Shown here piece by piece: positions 31,324 to 36,782 of a stretch of 41,321 bases of DNA (within the stretch, counting starts at the first letter, position 1; every line of letters starts with the position of its first letter). The translations under genes were made by a program, and so were the position numbers. The notes beneath the pieces are model-generated. The model did not search any database. It saw only the letters and a program-made list of their open reading frames with translations, and was not told where the DNA came from. The DNA is from Oscillospiraceae bacterium (GTDB taxonomy: Bacteria > Bacillota > Clostridia > Oscillospirales > Ruminococcaceae), in contig JAKSPK010000020.1 of the NCBI GenBank assembly GCA_024404875.1, positions 1 to 41,321 on the forward strand, written 5' to 3'.

Positions 31324-31448
31324 CTGGTCCGAGACCGGTCACGATGTGAGATCAGGTAGTAAGGCCGATCATGATATTTGGCTGCATCCATTTTTTTCAT
31401 CACAATACTATGCCCCCATTACAGCAAGACAATCGAATCTATCATGTT

Positions 31449-31619: not shown

Positions 31620-33674
31620 ATGCATCCTGAGATCTTTCTTATCGGCCTGACCGGTCAGACCGGCGCCGGAAAAACAACAGTCAGTACGCTCTTGCAAAAT
31701 GAAGGCTTTGCCGCCATCAATGCGGATACTGTTGCGCGGGCGGCCGTGCAGCCCGGTTCGCCCTGCCTGAATGCGCTGTCACGAATCTTCGGCCAGCAGA
31801 TCATGCAGCCGGACGGCACGCTCGACCGCGCTGCGACTGCCGCACTGATCTTCACCGATGAAAATGCCAGGGCACGGTATGAAGCCGTGATCTATCCCTA
31901 TATCACGCGGCTGATCCGACAGGAAGCCGCTGCACTCGCTGCTGCCGGAAATCGCCTGATCCTTCTCGATGCACCGACACTGTTCGAGAGCGGTATTTTC
32001 CGCAGCTGTCATGCGATTGTTTCGGTGGTTGCTGATGCGGAGCTCCGGAAATCGCGCATTACAAAGCGTGACGGTCTGACCGAGGAACAGGCGCTCCGCC
32101 GCATGAATGCACAGTATCCGGAGTCTTTCTTTCGGACGCATTCGGATGCGGTCATCGAAAACAACGGTGATGCCGCGCTGCTCCGGCAGGCGGTATCCGA
32201 AACGGCACAATGTCTGCGCAAATGTGCAGAGCTATTTTCAACAAATAAAGCCATTCACAAGGAGGTACCCGTAATGGAAACAAAGGATAAGCTGAAAGAA
32301 CTGAAGGAATCGCTGCTGATGCAGAAGAAAAATGCAGGTCTGCTGCTCAGTGAAGAGGATATCGCAAAGTGCGATGCATTCTGCGAAAGCTATAAGCAAT
32401 TCCTCGATCAGAGCAAGACCGAGCGCGAAGGCGCAGCTGCAGCTGCGGCTCTGCTGGAAGCAAAAGGCTTCCGGAAATGGCAGCGCGGTGATGCACTCAA
32501 AGCCGGTGATAAGATCTACACCTGCAACCGCGGCAAGGCGATTGTCGCTGCGGTCATCGGAACCGATCCGCTGGAGGACGGCATTCGTCTTTCCGCAGCA
32601 CATATCGACTCGCCCCGCCTGGATCTCAAGCAGGTGCCGCTTTACGAGGATAATGAGCTTGCACTGTTCAAAACGCATTATTACGGCGGCATCAAGAAAT
32701 ATCAGTGGACAGTCCTGCCGCTGGCGCTGCACGGTGTCATCGCAAAAAAAGACGGCAGCACCGTGACGGTCTGCGTCGGCGAGGATCCGACGGATCCGAT
32801 CTTCTGCGTGACCGATCTTCTGCCGCATCTGGCACAGGAACAGTCGACGCGCACGCTCGGTCAGGGCATCAAGGGTGAGGAGCTGAATCTGCTGATTGGT
32901 TCACGGCCGTTCCGCTGCGATGAGGGCAGTGATCTCGTCAAACTGCGCATCATGCAGATCCTCAATGAAAAATACGGCATCACAGAAGCGGATTTCCTTT
33001 CTGCGGAGCTGGAGATCGTTCCGGCTGGCAAATCGCGTGACCTCGGCTTTGACCGCAGCATGATCGGCGGCTACGGCCATGATGACCGTGTCTGCGCTTA
33101 TCCGGCACTGGCTGCACTGCTCGATACGGAGCATCCACAGCATACTGCCGTCGTAATCCTGACCGACAAAGAGGAAATCGGCAGCGAAGGCAATACTGGC
33201 CTGCAATCAGCATATTTCTATCACTTCATGAAGGATCTTGCAGCTGCCTTCGGCACTGAGGCGCATACGGTCTTTGCAAAGTCCCAGTGCCTTTCTGCGG
33301 ATGTCACGGCTGCATTTGATCCGACCTTCGCCGATGTCAACGACCGCCGGAACTGTGCATATCTGAACTACGGCGTCTGCATGATGAAATTCACCGGTGC
33401 CCGCGGAAAGAGCGGTTCCTCGGATGCATCTGCGGAATTCATCGGAAAGATGCGCACGCTGTTTGACAATGCAGGTGTGATCTGGCAGACCGGTGAGCTT
33501 GGAAAGGTTGATCTCGGCGGCGGCGGAACGGTCGCGGCCTATCTCGCAAATCTGAATATTGATACCGTTGATCTCGGCGTACCGGTGCTTTCGATGCACG
33601 CGCCGCTGGAGGTCGTCAGCAAGATTGATGTTTATATGTGCTATGCGGCCATCGCAGCCTTTAATGCATCATAA
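31620..33674 (+). CDS. coaE: Dephospho-CoA kinase reading in frame into an M18 aminopeptidase
   Basis: The first 200 residues are dephospho-CoA kinase, which phosphorylates dephospho-CoA in the last step of CoA synthesis: P-loop GLTGQTGAGKTT (about 9-20), INADTVAR, and LLDAPTLFES. AGGAGG lies 10 bases before the ATG. No stop codon follows the kinase domain. The frame runs through a 12-15 residue segment (TNKAIHKEVPV) straight into the M18 aminopeptidase, giving a 684-residue open frame. Because the segment encodes a perfect ribosome site and an ATG at 32274, the cell could make a fusion, a separate peptidase, or both. A TAA lies one frame away at the junction, so a small deletion (or sequencing error) may have removed the original stop. 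Confidence 0.85.
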   Translation: MHPEIFLIGLTGQTGAGKTTVSTLLQNEGFAAINADTVARAAVQPGSPCLNALSRIFGQQIMQPDGTLDRAATAALIFTDENARARYEAVIYPYITRLIRQEAAALAAAGNRLILLDAPTLFESGIFRSCHAIVSVVADAELRKSRITKRDGLTEEQALRRMNAQYPESFFRTHSDAVIENNGDAALLRQAVSETAQCLRKCAELFSTNKAIHKEVPVMETKDKLKELKESLLMQKKNAGLLLSEEDIAKCDAFCESYKQFLDQSKTEREGAAAAAALLEAKGFRKWQRGDALKAGDKIYTCNRGKAIVAAVIGTDPLEDGIRLSAAHIDSPRLDLKQVPLYEDNELALFKTHYYGGIKKYQWTVLPLALHGVIAKKDGSTVTVCVGEDPTDPIFCVTDLLPHLAQEQSTRTLGQGIKGEELNLLIGSRPFRCDEGSDLVKLRIMQILNEKYGITEADFLSAELEIVPAGKSRDLGFDRSMIGGYGHDDRVCAYPALAALLDTEHPQHTAVVILTDKEEIGSEGNTGLQSAYFYHFMKDLAAAFGTEAHTVFAKSQCLSADVTAAFDPTFADVNDRRNCAYLNYGVCMMKFTGARGKSGSSDASAEFIGKMRTLFDNAGVIWQTGELGKVDLGGGGTVAAYLANLNIDTVDLGVPVLSMHAPLEVVSKIDVYMCYAAIAAFNAS
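32274..33674 (+). CDS. M18 family aminopeptidase (internal start in the coaE frame)
   Basis: The 466-residue peptidase is a cytoplasmic zinc aminopeptidase of the DapE/aspartyl aminopeptidase type and forms tetrahedral dodecamers in relatives. Motifs: SAAHIDSPRLDLKQ (first zinc His and Asp, about 113-126), TDKEEIGSEGNTG (catalytic Glu, about 300-312), DVTAAFDPTF, and VLSMHAPLEVVSKID near the C-terminus with the last His. This pattern fits the bacterial M18 group annotated as aminopeptidase 1. AAGGAGG lies 8 bases before ATG 32274, so independent initiation is likely even though the frame continues from coaE. Ends with a strong terminator. Confidence 0.88.
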   Translation: METKDKLKELKESLLMQKKNAGLLLSEEDIAKCDAFCESYKQFLDQSKTEREGAAAAAALLEAKGFRKWQRGDALKAGDKIYTCNRGKAIVAAVIGTDPLEDGIRLSAAHIDSPRLDLKQVPLYEDNELALFKTHYYGGIKKYQWTVLPLALHGVIAKKDGSTVTVCVGEDPTDPIFCVTDLLPHLAQEQSTRTLGQGIKGEELNLLIGSRPFRCDEGSDLVKLRIMQILNEKYGITEADFLSAELEIVPAGKSRDLGFDRSMIGGYGHDDRVCAYPALAALLDTEHPQHTAVVILTDKEEIGSEGNTGLQSAYFYHFMKDLAAAFGTEAHTVFAKSQCLSADVTAAFDPTFADVNDRRNCAYLNYGVCMMKFTGARGKSGSSDASAEFIGKMRTLFDNAGVIWQTGELGKVDLGGGGTVAAYLANLNIDTVDLGVPVLSMHAPLEVVSKIDVYMCYAAIAAFNAS

Positions 33675-33765
33675 GAAGTCATCAGACCAGTGATCCGGAT
33701 ATGCAGGAGACGGCCGTCTGCGGCCGCTGCTGATATAGATTATGCTATCGGATAGCTTGAAAAAG

Positions 33766-33799
33766 AGCGATGCTCTCCAACATTGAGAGCATCGCTTTT
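33766..33799 (+). terminator. Terminator of the aminopeptidase gene
   Basis: AGCGATGCTCTC (33766-33777) pairs with 33785-33796, a 12-bp stem followed by TTTTC. Confidence 0.9.
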
Positions 33800-33800
33800 C

Positions 33801-33847
33801 TGTCCCCCAAGCCCCCTGGCTAATTCGCCAGCGGGACTTGGGGGACA
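33801..33847. repeat. Long G/C-rich palindrome downstream of the reverse transcriptase gene
   Basis: TGTCCCCCAAG (33801-33811) pairs perfectly with CTTGGGGGACA (33837-33847). Inside, CTGGC/GCCAG with CCC/GGG continue the stem around a TAATTC loop, about 19 bp in all. No T tract follows on either strand, so it is not a plain terminator. It looks like a REP-like dispersed element. Confidence 0.6.
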
Positions 33848-33902
33848 TACCTTCCATTCTGATGGTATTTCTTGCGCTGTATTCTTTTTCCCGGCGTATC
33901 AC

Positions 33903-35114
33903 TTACAGGTCGTATCCGAACGGTGCATAGTATTCATGCACAAGGCTGCGGTATCCCAACTGTTTCAGATCTGCATACCGGACATTGAAGCGTGCCTTTG
34001 TCCGGCAGCCGCTGATGAGAAACCGCAGGCAGTCCTGCGCATAGCGGTCGATTTCCCGCAGGCTCTCGACCGTATTGATGACCGGAAAATACCACAGGCT
34101 CCATGAGAGTATATGATCCTGATCCTCCGGCTGTTCAAATAGCTTGCGGTTGAAAATGCGGATAAATGCAGCTGCAGCCTTTTCGCCGGGAATCTGATTC
34201 CGTTTTGCCCAGCGGTCCAGAGCGCGTGTTTTCCGGCGCATTTTTGCTTTCAGTTTCCGGACGGATACCGGCGCGATATCGACCGTATCGCCGCAGACGG
34301 TGAATCCCAGAAAGCACCATCCCTCCGCCGGTGACTGAAAGCATTCCTTTGCCGGATTGACATTCAGCCGATGCTTTGCGAGAAAACTGCGGATAATTTC
34401 CGCATATGCAGCGGTCTGCTCCGGCGTATCACCAAAGACGATGATATCATCGGAATACCGTGCGTATGGGATGCGGCGATCATGGAAATATGCATCCAGT
34501 TCCCGCAGAAATAGATTTGCATAAAACGCGGAGAGCGGTGTTCCGGCCATAATGCCTTTCTGCTCAGCGACGGGCGTACCATTTTCCAATGCACAGGGCT
34601 CAGCCAGCAATTCACGAAGAAACCGATAAAGCGCCGGATCCTCTGCGGTGATTGTTTCAAGATCATCCAGCAGCAGTTCGACCGGAACAGAGTTAAAATA
34701 ATTGCTGATATCGACCTTATAGGAATACATCCGCTCCGTATGGAGATAATGCAGACGGCGGATCGCATCCTTGGCCGTACGCCCCGGCCGGAAGGAATAA
34801 AGCTCTGGACAGAACAACCGGTCATATTTACGCAGAAGCAAATGTGTCAGCAGCTTCAGAACAATATTCTCATCCTGCGGATAGGTGTAGACCACACGCT
34901 TTTTCTGTGCGCTGACCTTGCTTATGACCGATCTGCGCGGAAGCGGAAACGGCTTTCCAGCCTGCATATTCGCACGGACTGCCGTCCAGCCTGCACGGTC
35001 GATCCATGCGCGAAGCTGTTTTTGTGTCTCACGCGAGCAATGCCGTTCGGTTTTGTATTGATAAAAGCGCTCCCAGGATTCCGGCTGGAAGAGCTGATCA
35101 AGCAAAGAAAACAT
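33903..35114 (-). CDS. Stand-alone reverse transcriptase of an unassigned group
   Basis: The 403-residue protein is almost entirely polymerase domain. It has the group II-like start (ISKVSAQKKRVVY, SFRPGRTAKDAI), motif A KVDISNYFNSVP (D135), motif B GIMAGTPLSAFYANLFLREL, motif C ARYSDDIIVFG (YSDD 220-223), and LNVNPAKECF with GWCFLGF. The C-terminal 120 residues (RIFNRKLFE, HILSWSLWYFPVINT, KARFNVRYADLKQLGYRSLV) are helical, like a thumb extension. There is no maturase HNH domain and no protease or integrase. The YSDD motif and lack of VTG argue against a retron. I infer an 'unknown group' or defence-type reverse transcriptase. GAGG lies 6 bases before the ATG, which overlaps a 36-codon ORF. 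Confidence 0.9.
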   Translation of the reverse strand: MFSLLDQLFQPESWERFYQYKTERHCSRETQKQLRAWIDRAGWTAVRANMQAGKPFPLPRRSVISKVSAQKKRVVYTYPQDENIVLKLLTHLLLRKYDRLFCPELYSFRPGRTAKDAIRRLHYLHTERMYSYKVDISNYFNSVPVELLLDDLETITAEDPALYRFLRELLAEPCALENGTPVAEQKGIMAGTPLSAFYANLFLRELDAYFHDRRIPYARYSDDIIVFGDTPEQTAAYAEIIRSFLAKHRLNVNPAKECFQSPAEGWCFLGFTVCGDTVDIAPVSVRKLKAKMRRKTRALDRWAKRNQIPGEKAAAAFIRIFNRKLFEQPEDQDHILSWSLWYFPVINTVESLREIDRYAQDCLRFLISGCRTKARFNVRYADLKQLGYRSLVHEYYAPFGYDL

Positions 35115-35208
35115 GATGCGCCTCAGCTTTCAGCATTCTGGACAGAGACCATTTCTTCGTCAAGAAAAGCGCGGTCAGAGCGACTGCTGATTTTGTTGAA
35201 ATATGCAT
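35098..35208 (-). CDS. 36-residue ORF overlapping the start of the reverse transcriptase gene
   Basis: The ORF starts MHISTKSAVALTALFLTKKW and ends AHHVFFA. AAAGGA lies 8 bases before its ATG, and its end overlaps the polymerase ATG by 17 bases in another frame. It should couple translation of the polymerase to its own. The product could be a small accessory protein or just a leader; it resembles nothing I recognise. Confidence 0.5.
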   Translation of the reverse strand: MHISTKSAVALTALFLTKKWSLSRMLKAEAHHVFFA

Positions 35209-35298
35209 AATGCAGTTCCTTTCAGGCAATATTGAGAACAAACCATTTCCTGCGCTTATTTGCTTGTCTTTTTGCCGTAATACTACATTCGGGATGCC

Positions 35299-35312
35299 TT
35301 GTCTCACGACAA
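35299..35312 (-). other. Short hairpin with a GTGA loop upstream of the reverse transcriptase operon
   Basis: On the minus strand TTGTC-GTGA-GACAA can fold into a 5-bp stem capped by a GNRA tetraloop. It lies between the structured element (35356-35496) and the 36-codon ORF and may belong to the same RNA. Confidence 0.4.
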
Positions 35313-35355
35313 AAAAACGCGCATCTATTCTTCAAAATTTCATTGATACATCAAT

Positions 35356-35496
35356 AAAAAAACAGAAAGAGAAACCGTTAAATCCTTGAAATTCAAGGAT
35401 GTACCGGACCGTACACGGATCGGCTGCCTGCGAAGCGCATAGGAAGATCCGTGCCTGGCCCACCGCAGGCGCTGTGCGTTCTCTTTCTGTTTTTTT
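35356..35496 (-). ncRNA. Structured element closed by a perfect 18-bp inverted repeat, upstream of the reverse transcriptase
   Basis: The arms at 35356-35373 and 35479-35496 (AAAAAAACAGAAAGAGAA and its exact complement) enclose 105 bases that fold into a row of hairpins. These are 35382-35400 (ATCCTTG/CAAGGAT, 7 bp), 35401-35414 (GTAC/GTAC), 35414-35453 (8-bp CACGGATC/GATCCGTG capped by an inner CCTGCG/CGC..AGG stem) and 35453-35470 (GCCTG/CAGGC). The whole resembles a multi-branched RNA. Strand is set by the polymerase gene it precedes, but the element is symmetric and ends in seven U on either strand. No promoter is evident; it starts 21 bases after the stop of the 35518 gene. It could instead be a small mobile element with terminal inverted repeats. 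Confidence 0.6.
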
Positions 35497-35517
35497 CAAA
35501 TTTGGATCGCCTGCAAA

Positions 35518-35988
35518 TCAGAGCGTTTGCAGTGCAGAGCGAATGCGGCCGACAACATAGCTGCGCACATTCCACCAGCCCAAATGGTCATAGTAGAAAC
35601 GCAGATAGGGCGTGCCCTCCGCCTGGCAATTGCTTCGGAGCTTCCTGCTGCTGCATCGCTCCGACATCAGCTCGATGACCAGCATCTTTCTGCCGTTTTC
35701 AAAGAGCGTCAGCACTGTGCCGGTTCCTTCGCGGACAGTCTCGGTTGTAAAGGTGAACTGCCGAAAATCCTCGCGAAGAATACTTTCAAAATACTCTGTA
35801 TACGTCCCGCCGAAATTGAACTGGTTCGGTTCATTCGGCATACGCTTGCTGTAATTGTCTGCGCTGTCCTGCGGCGCAGAGATCTCCGTGCCTGATCCGT
35901 TATCGTTGGTCTCGAACATAGCCTTAACCTTTTCAAGCGCATTTTGTGCGGCTTCATCCGAGCCGAACAGTTTAGAAAGCAGTCCCAT
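35518..35988 (-). CDS. Conserved hypothetical protein, 156 residues
   Basis: The protein has no signal peptide. The N-terminus (MGLLSKLFGSDEAAQ) is amphipathic, the middle is polar and variable, and residues about 70-156 form the conserved part, ending in YLRFYYDHLGWWNVRSYVVG. I recall similar endings in hypothetical proteins of many Clostridia, but no function is known to me. GGGGGAAG precedes the ATG. It has a good promoter. No terminator follows; instead the 18-bp inverted repeat element begins 21 bases after the stop, so its transcript may run into the reverse transcriptase locus. Confidence 0.85.
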   Translation of the reverse strand: MGLLSKLFGSDEAAQNALEKVKAMFETNDNGSGTEISAPQDSADNYSKRMPNEPNQFNFGGTYTEYFESILREDFRQFTFTTETVREGTGTVLTLFENGRKMLVIELMSERCSSRKLRSNCQAEGTPYLRFYYDHLGWWNVRSYVVGRIRSALQTL

Positions 35989-36017
35989 AGAACAACTTCC
36001 CCCTTTCCTTTTTACAT

Positions 36018-36046
36018 ATTATAACATATTATCCCCAAAAGTGCAA
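36018..36046 (-). promoter_or_regulatory. Promoter of the 156-residue hypothetical gene
   Basis: Minus-strand TTGCAC (36041-36046), 17-base spacer, TATAAT (36018-36023) with an extended TG motif. Confidence 0.85.
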
Positions 36047-36278
36047 TGGATAAAATAAAATTTCAGTATTCGGCTGCCTGATCTCGCCTTTCCGTGCTCT
36101 CAGTATACGCTATAGCGCTGTGCCATAGTCAAATGAATCATGACATACTGCACACCCTGCGTATTTCACTGACCATATACCCCTGCATTCCCTTGTTTGC
36201 ATAGGAATTTTGTATGATTCGCGTAAACTGAGCCTTTATTCCACCCGAAAAAACGGTAGAATGCCGAGCCTGTTTTCC

Positions 36279-36307
36279 TTGCAAAAGCGTACGGAATATG
36301 TTATAAT
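36279..36307 (+). promoter_or_regulatory. Promoter of the Rrf2 gene
   Basis: TTGCAA (36279-36284), 17-base spacer, TATAAT (36302-36307) with an extended TG motif. Confidence 0.88.
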
Positions 36308-36347
36308 AAATGTAACAGTAATAATTTACAGCAAAGGGGTGCACCAC

Positions 36348-36782
36348 ATGAAAATTTCAACCAAAGGCAGATATGCCCTTCGGATGCTGTTTGAGCTGGC
36401 TCGGCATCAGGAAAACGGCTATATGTCGCTCAAGGAGATCTCCGATCGCCAGAATATTTCAAAAAAATATCTGGAGCAGATCGTACCGATGCTCAATAAA
36501 AGCGGCATCCTGCGAACGAACCGCGGCAACAAGGGCGGCTATATGCTCGCTAAGCCTGCTTCGGAATGCACAGTCGGTGATGTGCTGCGCGCAACAGAGG
36601 GCAGCCTTGCGCCGGTCTCCTGTCTCGATCAGGAATATAACGACTGCCCGCGTGCAGGATTCTGCGTAACGCTCTATATCTGGGAAGGACTCAATAAGGC
36701 CGTCTCCGATTATCTTGACAGCATCACGATCCAGGATATCCTCGACCGCAGCAGCGAAGCCGACGATCAATACTGCATATAA
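36348..36782 (+). CDS. Rrf2 family regulator with three conserved-position cysteines
   Basis: The 144-residue protein has the Rrf2 winged helix: MKISTKGRYALRMLFELARH, then ISDRQNISKKYLEQIVPML (recognition helix) and RGNKGGYMLAKP (wing). After it come C92, C100 and C106 (C-x7-C-x5-C), at nearly the spacing of the 2Fe-2S ligands of IscR (C-x5-C-x5-C). CymR-type cysteine regulators lack such a triad. An Fe-S, redox or nitric oxide sensor is likely; the ligand is not certain because of the longer first gap. I chose ATG 36348, the family-typical start, with AAAGGGG upstream. It is not next to isc/suf genes. A TGTAA/TTACA inverted repeat in its leader may be for autoregulation. Confidence 0.93.
   Translation: MKISTKGRYALRMLFELARHQENGYMSLKEISDRQNISKKYLEQIVPMLNKSGILRTNRGNKGGYMLAKPASECTVGDVLRATEGSLAPVSCLDQEYNDCPRAGFCVTLYIWEGLNKAVSDYLDSITIQDILDRSSEADDQYCI

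Follow-up and report, generated by a model that had tools for sequence, protein, structure and literature searches.

A locus on the minus strand of contig JAKSPK010000020.1 of an Oscillospiraceae bacterium (GenBank assembly GCA_024404875.1) raises the question of what kind of system is formed by a stand-alone reverse transcriptase (RT) gene that is preceded by an RNA element closed by inverted repeats. We refer to the whole stretch of DNA that was analysed (41,321 nt) as the window. A preliminary description of the sequence had proposed a new member or a new class of RNA-templated defence system, consisting of a YSDD RT without the VTG motif, a 36-codon open reading frame (ORF) with a ribosome site that overlaps the RT start, and a 141-base element bounded by a perfect 18-bp inverted repeat. 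These features are present as described (Table 1); an accessory gene, RTasCOG2852, and an RNA pseudoknot had no place in that reading. To judge from sequence comparisons, the locus very probably encodes an RT-RNA particle, composed of an RT of the unknown group (UG) UG26 and the Rfam RNA RT-5, and we modestly favor the fuller explanation that this is a ribonucleoprotein of the UG/defence-associated RT (DRT) type.

The UG26 reverse transcriptase and its RNA

The RT matches the PADLOC profile RT_UG26 with 555 bits (1.7e-167), while the next-best profile reaches 118 bits; those ranked after UG26 are, in order, general RT, UG27, Cas1-fusion, UG17 (= DRT10), Drt9, UG4 and Drt3a. Pfam RVT_1 is matched at 7.2e-25. 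That the polymerase is not of the retron type is borne out by both profile and motifs. The NCBIfam profile for the retron St85 RT scores 57 bits, under its cut-off of 235, and of the two motifs that we take to be diagnostic of retron RTs, NAxxH occurs in none of 37 UG26 RTs and VTG in one (L033), with neither in the window RT. The group II maturase profile, at 118 bits, is far under its cut-off of 300. In an RT tree built without class 1 or class 3 UG RTs, eight UG26 RTs including that of the window lie on one side of a branch with support of 100/99. When this tree is midpoint-rooted, UG26, two UG17 RTs and one long-branch DRT9 RT are set against the RTs of group II introns and diversity-generating retroelements (DGRs), although with support (91/94) under the starred level. 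In two other loci, L036 and L035, a gene of approximately 800 codons precedes the RT, its end abutting the RT start; the one in L036 has an HD domain.

The arms of the inverted repeat are 105 nt apart, and the sequence between and within them matches Rfam RT-5 (RF03026) at 35474..35370 on the minus strand, with 88.8 bits against a gathering cut-off of 45.7 (E 1.1e-17). A cmscan of positions 33800-36400 at E <= 1 returned RT-5 alone, and no intron RNA. For the minus strand the predicted folding energy is -60.8 kcal/mol (z -5.5; none of 200 shuffles as low), but the plus strand folds better still (z -7.5), so that folding alone does not tell the strand; we place the RNA on the minus strand because the Rfam match lies there and because of the comparison with relatives. 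The element is present in a single copy in the source assembly (87% complete), and was not seen there as an unlinked repeat.

The RNA structure was derived from an alignment of 46 of the 48 RNAs extracted, L019 (identical to L018) and L031 (with a diverged 3' half) having been dropped. The RNAs of L029 and L090-L095 are not in the alignment either, and those of L031 and L029 would count against some pairs. The structure, made up of helices P1, P2, P5/P3, P6 and P4, leaves 86.5% of alignment cells paired, and 46 of its 51 pairs are changed on both sides, a number that none of 500 shuffles matched; slid versions of the same structure pair only 37-49% of cells. The RNAs were collected with the Rfam model (104 positions), which contains P5, P3, P6 and P4, so the pair counts of these helices lean to the model, whereas the terminal stem P1 and the pseudoknot P2 are absent from it. 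The main helix of P1 is changed on both sides in 15 of 17 pairs (79.6% of cells paired), and weakens outwards to 48.8% at the outermost pair. P2 is paired in 97.5% of cells with both-side changes in six of seven pairs, and none of 500 shuffles reaches its covariation score, although 86 of 500 reach its pair-type count. RNAalifold is unable to draw P2, and instead joins a portion of the 5' strand of P2 to another stretch, with few both-side changes. We consider the structure, pseudoknot included, to be strongly supported by these comparisons.

P4 keeps its pairing (main helix: both-side changes in 7/7 pairs, 83.5% of cells paired) while its sequence varies freely. Directly 3' of it, the unpaired run UUUAA is near-invariant (45, 45, 43, 46 and 45 of 46 RNAs for the successive columns), with the possibility that its first U closes P4; the GUA before P4 is the second near-invariant unpaired run. 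The RT-5 RNA of L029 has an enlarged P4 region in its 3' half and scores 39.5 bits, under the Rfam cut-off.

A structured RNA upstream of the RT is not peculiar to this locus. Searching with the RT as query identified 44 loci, which by record title belong to Ruminococcus, Lachnospiraceae, Clostridia of other kinds, Bacilli and a single Deltaproteobacteria metagenome-assembled genome. The RNA is known for 43 of them: at the locus by Rfam in 37, at the locus under the threshold in one (L029, where it adjoins the RT), and on a contig other than that of the RT in five (L026, L032, L035, L055 and L056). In 36 of the 37, RNA and RT share a strand and the RNA precedes the RT by at most 856 nt, with a distance of 15-85 nt in 27; in the remaining one, L036, it is 3.7 kb upstream. 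No RNA was found for L053, whose RT is cut by a contig end. The separation in L035, where the RNA stops 10 nt short of the contig end, and in L055, where it lies beside the front part of a broken RT gene, may be due to assembly breaks.

The same association is seen genome by genome. Among 150 related genomes, the RNA was found in 14 and a UG26 RT (>500 bits) in 16, with all 14 in the overlap (Fisher p 6.7e-18); a further 36 genomes with weaker RT matches (<=135 bits) were counted as having other RTs. G017 and G026 have UG26 but no RNA, and in both the contig breaks off shortly upstream of the RT, after 152 and 4 nt, respectively. One genome (G029) has RNA and RT near the ends of two contigs, which we take to be an assembly break. 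In three others, G150 (L026), G151 (L032) and G022, the accessory gene and the RNA are together on a contig different from that of the RT. At least 25 kb of contig follow the RNA without an RT in each, and the contig upstream of the RT is free of the RNA for 6 kb in L026 and 72 kb in G022, though for only 0.5 kb in L032. These are draft assemblies, whose contigs do not give the true distances between RNA and RT. For all three genomes, the RT and the accessory protein have largely identical nearest neighbors, and over 24 genomes the RT and accessory distance matrices are correlated (r 0.90; 0/2000 permutations), with a contribution from shared descent. The matching neighbors of the unlinked copies argue against binning errors, and also against a role for the RNA as nothing more than a leader of the RT gene. 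Comparison of these genomes strongly supports the view that RT-5 is a partner RNA dedicated to the UG26 RT, and that both are retained as a pair even where they are unlinked.

The accessory gene and the spacer

The minus-strand gene order is accessory gene, RNA, RT. The accessory product matches PADLOC RTasCOG2852 with 152 bits, and an iterated profile found 33 such ORFs in a set made up of the window, the 44 loci and ten more. For thirty of these, the distance from the ORF end to P1 is -11 to +56 nt. The other three are a second copy in L031, an ORF between RNA and RT in L057, and an ORF in L029, for which there is no RNA coordinate. All 14 of the genomes with RNA have the gene, ending 56 nt or less before P1 (12 detected by PADLOC, G110 and G127 by the iterated profile; three of the 14 contigs are those of L016, L017 and L041), and the PADLOC model found it in none of the remaining 136 relatives. 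Conversely, for 17 of the 18 genomes whose locus lacks the accessory gene, none was detectable anywhere in the genome, from which we conclude that RNA and RT form the core. UG26/RT-5 would thus be a two-part RT-RNA particle that is often three-part.

In an AlphaFold2 (AF2) model of the accessory protein (mean pLDDT 79 overall), residues 53-156 are well modelled and resemble PD-(D/E)XK nucleases with moderate Z in structural matches. Judged by what we take to be the acidic motif of this fold, none of 13 accessory sequences has both acidic residues together, E being present in seven and D in four others on our reading of the alignment. The modelled domain is probably a dead nuclease fold. The N-termini vary, and include a helix resembling MGLLSKLFG, a probable membrane helix (L046) and zinc ribbons. 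The second RTasCOG2852 gene of L031 (5773-6507) lies downstream of the RT, and begins with a zinc-ribbon-like stretch.

The spacer between RNA and RT is variable between loci and is 256 nt long in the window, where it holds most of the 36-codon ORF. In L016 and L017, whose RTs are 91-92% identical to the window RT, it carries a gene of 269-270 residues that is lipoprotein-like, with what is presumably a lipobox; the L016 protein has no Pfam match. L042 has a SAP/DUF6434 gene in this place (similar genes occur in L043-L045), and L004 a possible DinB-like gene, under the Pfam cut-off. The preliminary description had listed the 36-codon ORF among the features of the locus. Its ribosome site (AAAGGA upstream of the ATG) and its 17-nt overlap with the RT start are as described, but we rejected it as a component of the system: a tblastn search of the 44 loci with the enclosing 69-residue frame gave no match at E <= 0.01 (the query is short and the search insensitive), and the ORF resembles the start of a lipoprotein gene. 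It aligns with the ribosome site and signal-peptide start of the L016 and L017 genes at a DNA score reached by none and one, respectively, of 1000 single-base shuffles; the peptides themselves are only weakly similar (42 and 23 of 1000 shuffles). On this alignment, the ORF is probably a remnant of the lipoprotein gene.

Table 1. Positions in the window of the RT, the RNA and its helices, the accessory gene and the small ORF
Feature	Position	Strand	Evidence
UG26 RT gene, 403 aa, YSDD	33903..35114	-	PADLOC RT_UG26, Pfam RVT_1, tree
RT-5 non-coding RNA with terminal stem P1 and U-run, 141 nt	35356..35496	-	RF03026, terminal repeat, covariation
P1, 5' arm	35479..35496	-	18-bp perfect inverted repeat, covariation
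P1, 3' arm, with terminator-like U-run at end	35356..35373	-	Inverted repeat, covariation
Pseudoknot P2, 5' strand	35464..35470	-	Covariation
Pseudoknot P2, 3' strand	35426..35432	-	Covariation
P5/P3, 5' strands	35446..35462	-	13/15 pairs changed on both sides
P3/P5, 3' strands	35405..35421	-	Covariation
Hairpin P4, sequence free but pairing kept	35382..35400	-	Covariation
J4/1, near-invariant UUUAA 3' of P4; candidate template	35375..35382	-	Column conservation
Accessory gene RTasCOG2852 (156 aa), with a probably inactive PD-(D/E)XK-like fold at the C-terminus of its product	35518..35988	-	PADLOC, AF2 model, structural matches, residues
36-codon ORF, probable remnant of lipoprotein gene start	35098..35208	-	No tblastn match, DNA similarity to L016/L017

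Between positions 31371 and 33674 on the plus strand, a single frame of the window joins dephospho-CoA-kinase-like and M18-aminopeptidase-like parts (named by sequence reading), and the same joined frame is present in L016 and L017, the respective parts being approximately 88% and 98% identical. Over 33674-36350, the window shares with these two loci the flank on the RT (aminopeptidase) side, while the flank on the side of the accessory gene is different. L043 and L044 each have two Gut-1 RNAs (RF01706) within 2 kb of the UG26 cassette.

Known systems and competing explanations

The RT, the RNA and the accessory protein each match a catalogued model at high score (PADLOC RT_UG26, Rfam RT-5 and PADLOC RTasCOG2852). 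Of the earlier proposal, membership of the UG RTs stands, and a new class was rejected because RT group and RNA are both already catalogued. They are functionally unstudied, in that the literature matches listed include no functional study of UG26, RT-5, RF03026, RTasCOG2852 or DRT11-DRT15 (one match to "DRT15" was DRT1 followed by the reference number 5).

Comparisons with the templated complementary DNA (cDNA) and anti-phage action of DRT systems draw on the portions available of PMC12039810, PMC13174585, PMC12483538 and PMC12632851. According to these portions, DRT10 (UG17) has an RNA of a similar kind (approximately 140 nt, a large stem-loop with smaller ones, and a single-stranded stretch after a stable stem-loop); its RT is close to UG26 in the tree, and a third protein is found here too in part of the UG26 loci. 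The two differ in that the UG26 accessory protein is nuclease-like, whereas that of DRT10 is a SLATT protein; in the loop sequence, which is near-invariant in the UG26 RNA and variable in DRT10; in the position of the RNA, which lies between accessory gene and RT in UG26 but upstream of the accessory gene in DRT10; and in the lack of defence-gene neighbors at UG26 loci. The templates of both DRT10 and DRT9 (UG28) are described as placed comparably to UUUAA, although in DRT9 a U-rich tract is given in its stead, in an RNA of 188 rather than 141 nt, and the Drt9 model has 488 positions compared with the 403 residues of the window RT. DRT2 (UG2) likewise pairs an RT with a neighboring pseudoknotted RNA, but the available text of PMC12039810 gives it a different RNA layout and a template of 120 nt, too long for the UG26 RNA. 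Group II intron RTs are distinguished by the low maturase score and by the absence of intron RNA near the RT.

Several results weigh against a UG/DRT-type particle with a defence role. The predicted fold of the RT is closest to group II intron RTs, above those of DRT9 and DRT2, for which reason we do not assign it outright to class 2 of the UG RTs (the type of DRT2, DRT3a, DRT9 and DRT10) and have lowered our confidence. A test for an A-B-A' repeat, as in a DRT10-like template, was negative for covariation. Of 50 neighboring proteins listed, 30 were compared with PADLOC, drawn from 17 loci other than that of the window: 29 are without a match at 1e-8, and the remaining one matches PDC-S33 weakly; as a statement about this locus, "defence system" was therefore too strong. 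No relatives were found in phage, plasmid or viral-contig collections. The last two results, together with the retention of the parts even when unlinked, would suit a domesticated RT-RNA particle for housekeeping or stress, a bacterial cousin of telomerase, and we give this explanation a real though minor chance. It is opposed by the patchy presence of UG26 in the genus (>500 bits in 12/30 genomes), by an RT tree in which the genus does not come out as a single group (even if a single clade is not rejected, p-AU 0.12), and by the UG relatives with an RNA (DRT2, DRT3, DRT9 and DRT10), which are anti-phage according to the available parts of PMC12632851 and PMC13174585. It is also conceivable, but unlikely, that scaffolding or activation is the whole role of the RNA and that the RT makes untemplated DNA, as class 1 UG RTs are said to do in the available part of PMC13174585; the failed A-B-A' test agrees with this, while the RT groups by sequence with UG17 and DRT9, and, of the two unpaired runs with the highest conservation, one occupies the position of the DRT9 and DRT10 templates.

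The remaining explanations concern what the RNA belongs to. The RNA precedes the RT, is bounded by inverted repeats and has a size within the retron range, so it could be an msr-msd with the 18-bp repeat as a1/a2, from which the RT would make branched msDNA. We regard this as very improbable given the profile scores, the rarity of the presumed retron motifs, a fold comparison that ranks retron RTs under those of group II introns, DGRs, DRT9 and DRT2, and the three genomes in which the RNA is unlinked from the RT. The short distance to the RT in most loci, and a terminator-like stem and U-run before it, would be expected of a leader or attenuator that acts in cis on the expression of the RT and has no partner role, yet RT and RNA are both kept in the three genomes where the RNA is on another contig beside the accessory gene, and 3.7 kb separate them in L036; this explanation, too, has a very small chance of being correct. 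Finally, the tight spacing of accessory gene and P1, and their staying together when the RT is elsewhere, could mean that these two are a separate unit, for example a toxin with an RNA antitoxin, to which the RT is a secondary partner. Nearly all of the genomes that lack a detectable accessory gene have the RNA and RT nonetheless, and we consider a separate unit improbable.

A proposed mechanism and its meaning

For a UG/DRT-type ribonucleoprotein, the following mechanism can be envisaged. The RT would bind the RT-5 RNA and copy one of its short single-stranded segments, most likely close to the UUUAA just 3' of P4, and this copying might be repeated to give cDNA of short repeats or a homopolymer. 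Short templated cDNA as the product is slightly favored, and an anti-phage role somewhat more so; both are suggested by analogy with the templated cDNA and anti-phage action of DRT2, DRT3, DRT9 and DRT10. UUUAA itself is a tentative choice of template. If it is used, the products would be short AT-rich repeats, such as CCGTTAAA or TTAAA units, or dA runs. Infection would change or release the activity of the RT-RNA particle, and RTasCOG2852, where present, may serve as partner or effector by binding nucleic acid and not by cleaving DNA, with an N-terminus that possibly touches the membrane.

A different and rather doubtful view is of a trans-acting, telomerase-like particle for RNA-templated DNA synthesis in Clostridia-like bacteria, outside defence islands and possibly serving the host cell. 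The pseudoknotted RNA, a fixed template after a boundary hairpin, and an RT that need not be linked would fit such a particle, whose dead-nuclease partner might bind the membrane or DNA, and whose role might not be only against phages. A link between telomerase and UG RTs with partner RNAs is made in the available part of a preprint (PMC12632851), while that of PMC12039810 argues for convergence instead.

As a ribonucleoprotein of the UG/DRT type, UG26/RT-5 would be a further UG lineage, one whose RNA is sharply defined in its boundaries, its pseudoknot and its invariant loop, and which offers a candidate template. The natural splits between RNA and RT are evidence that the RNA acts in trans. 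The dead-nuclease partner, if it is truly that, would represent a type of partner other than the SLATT protein of DRT10.
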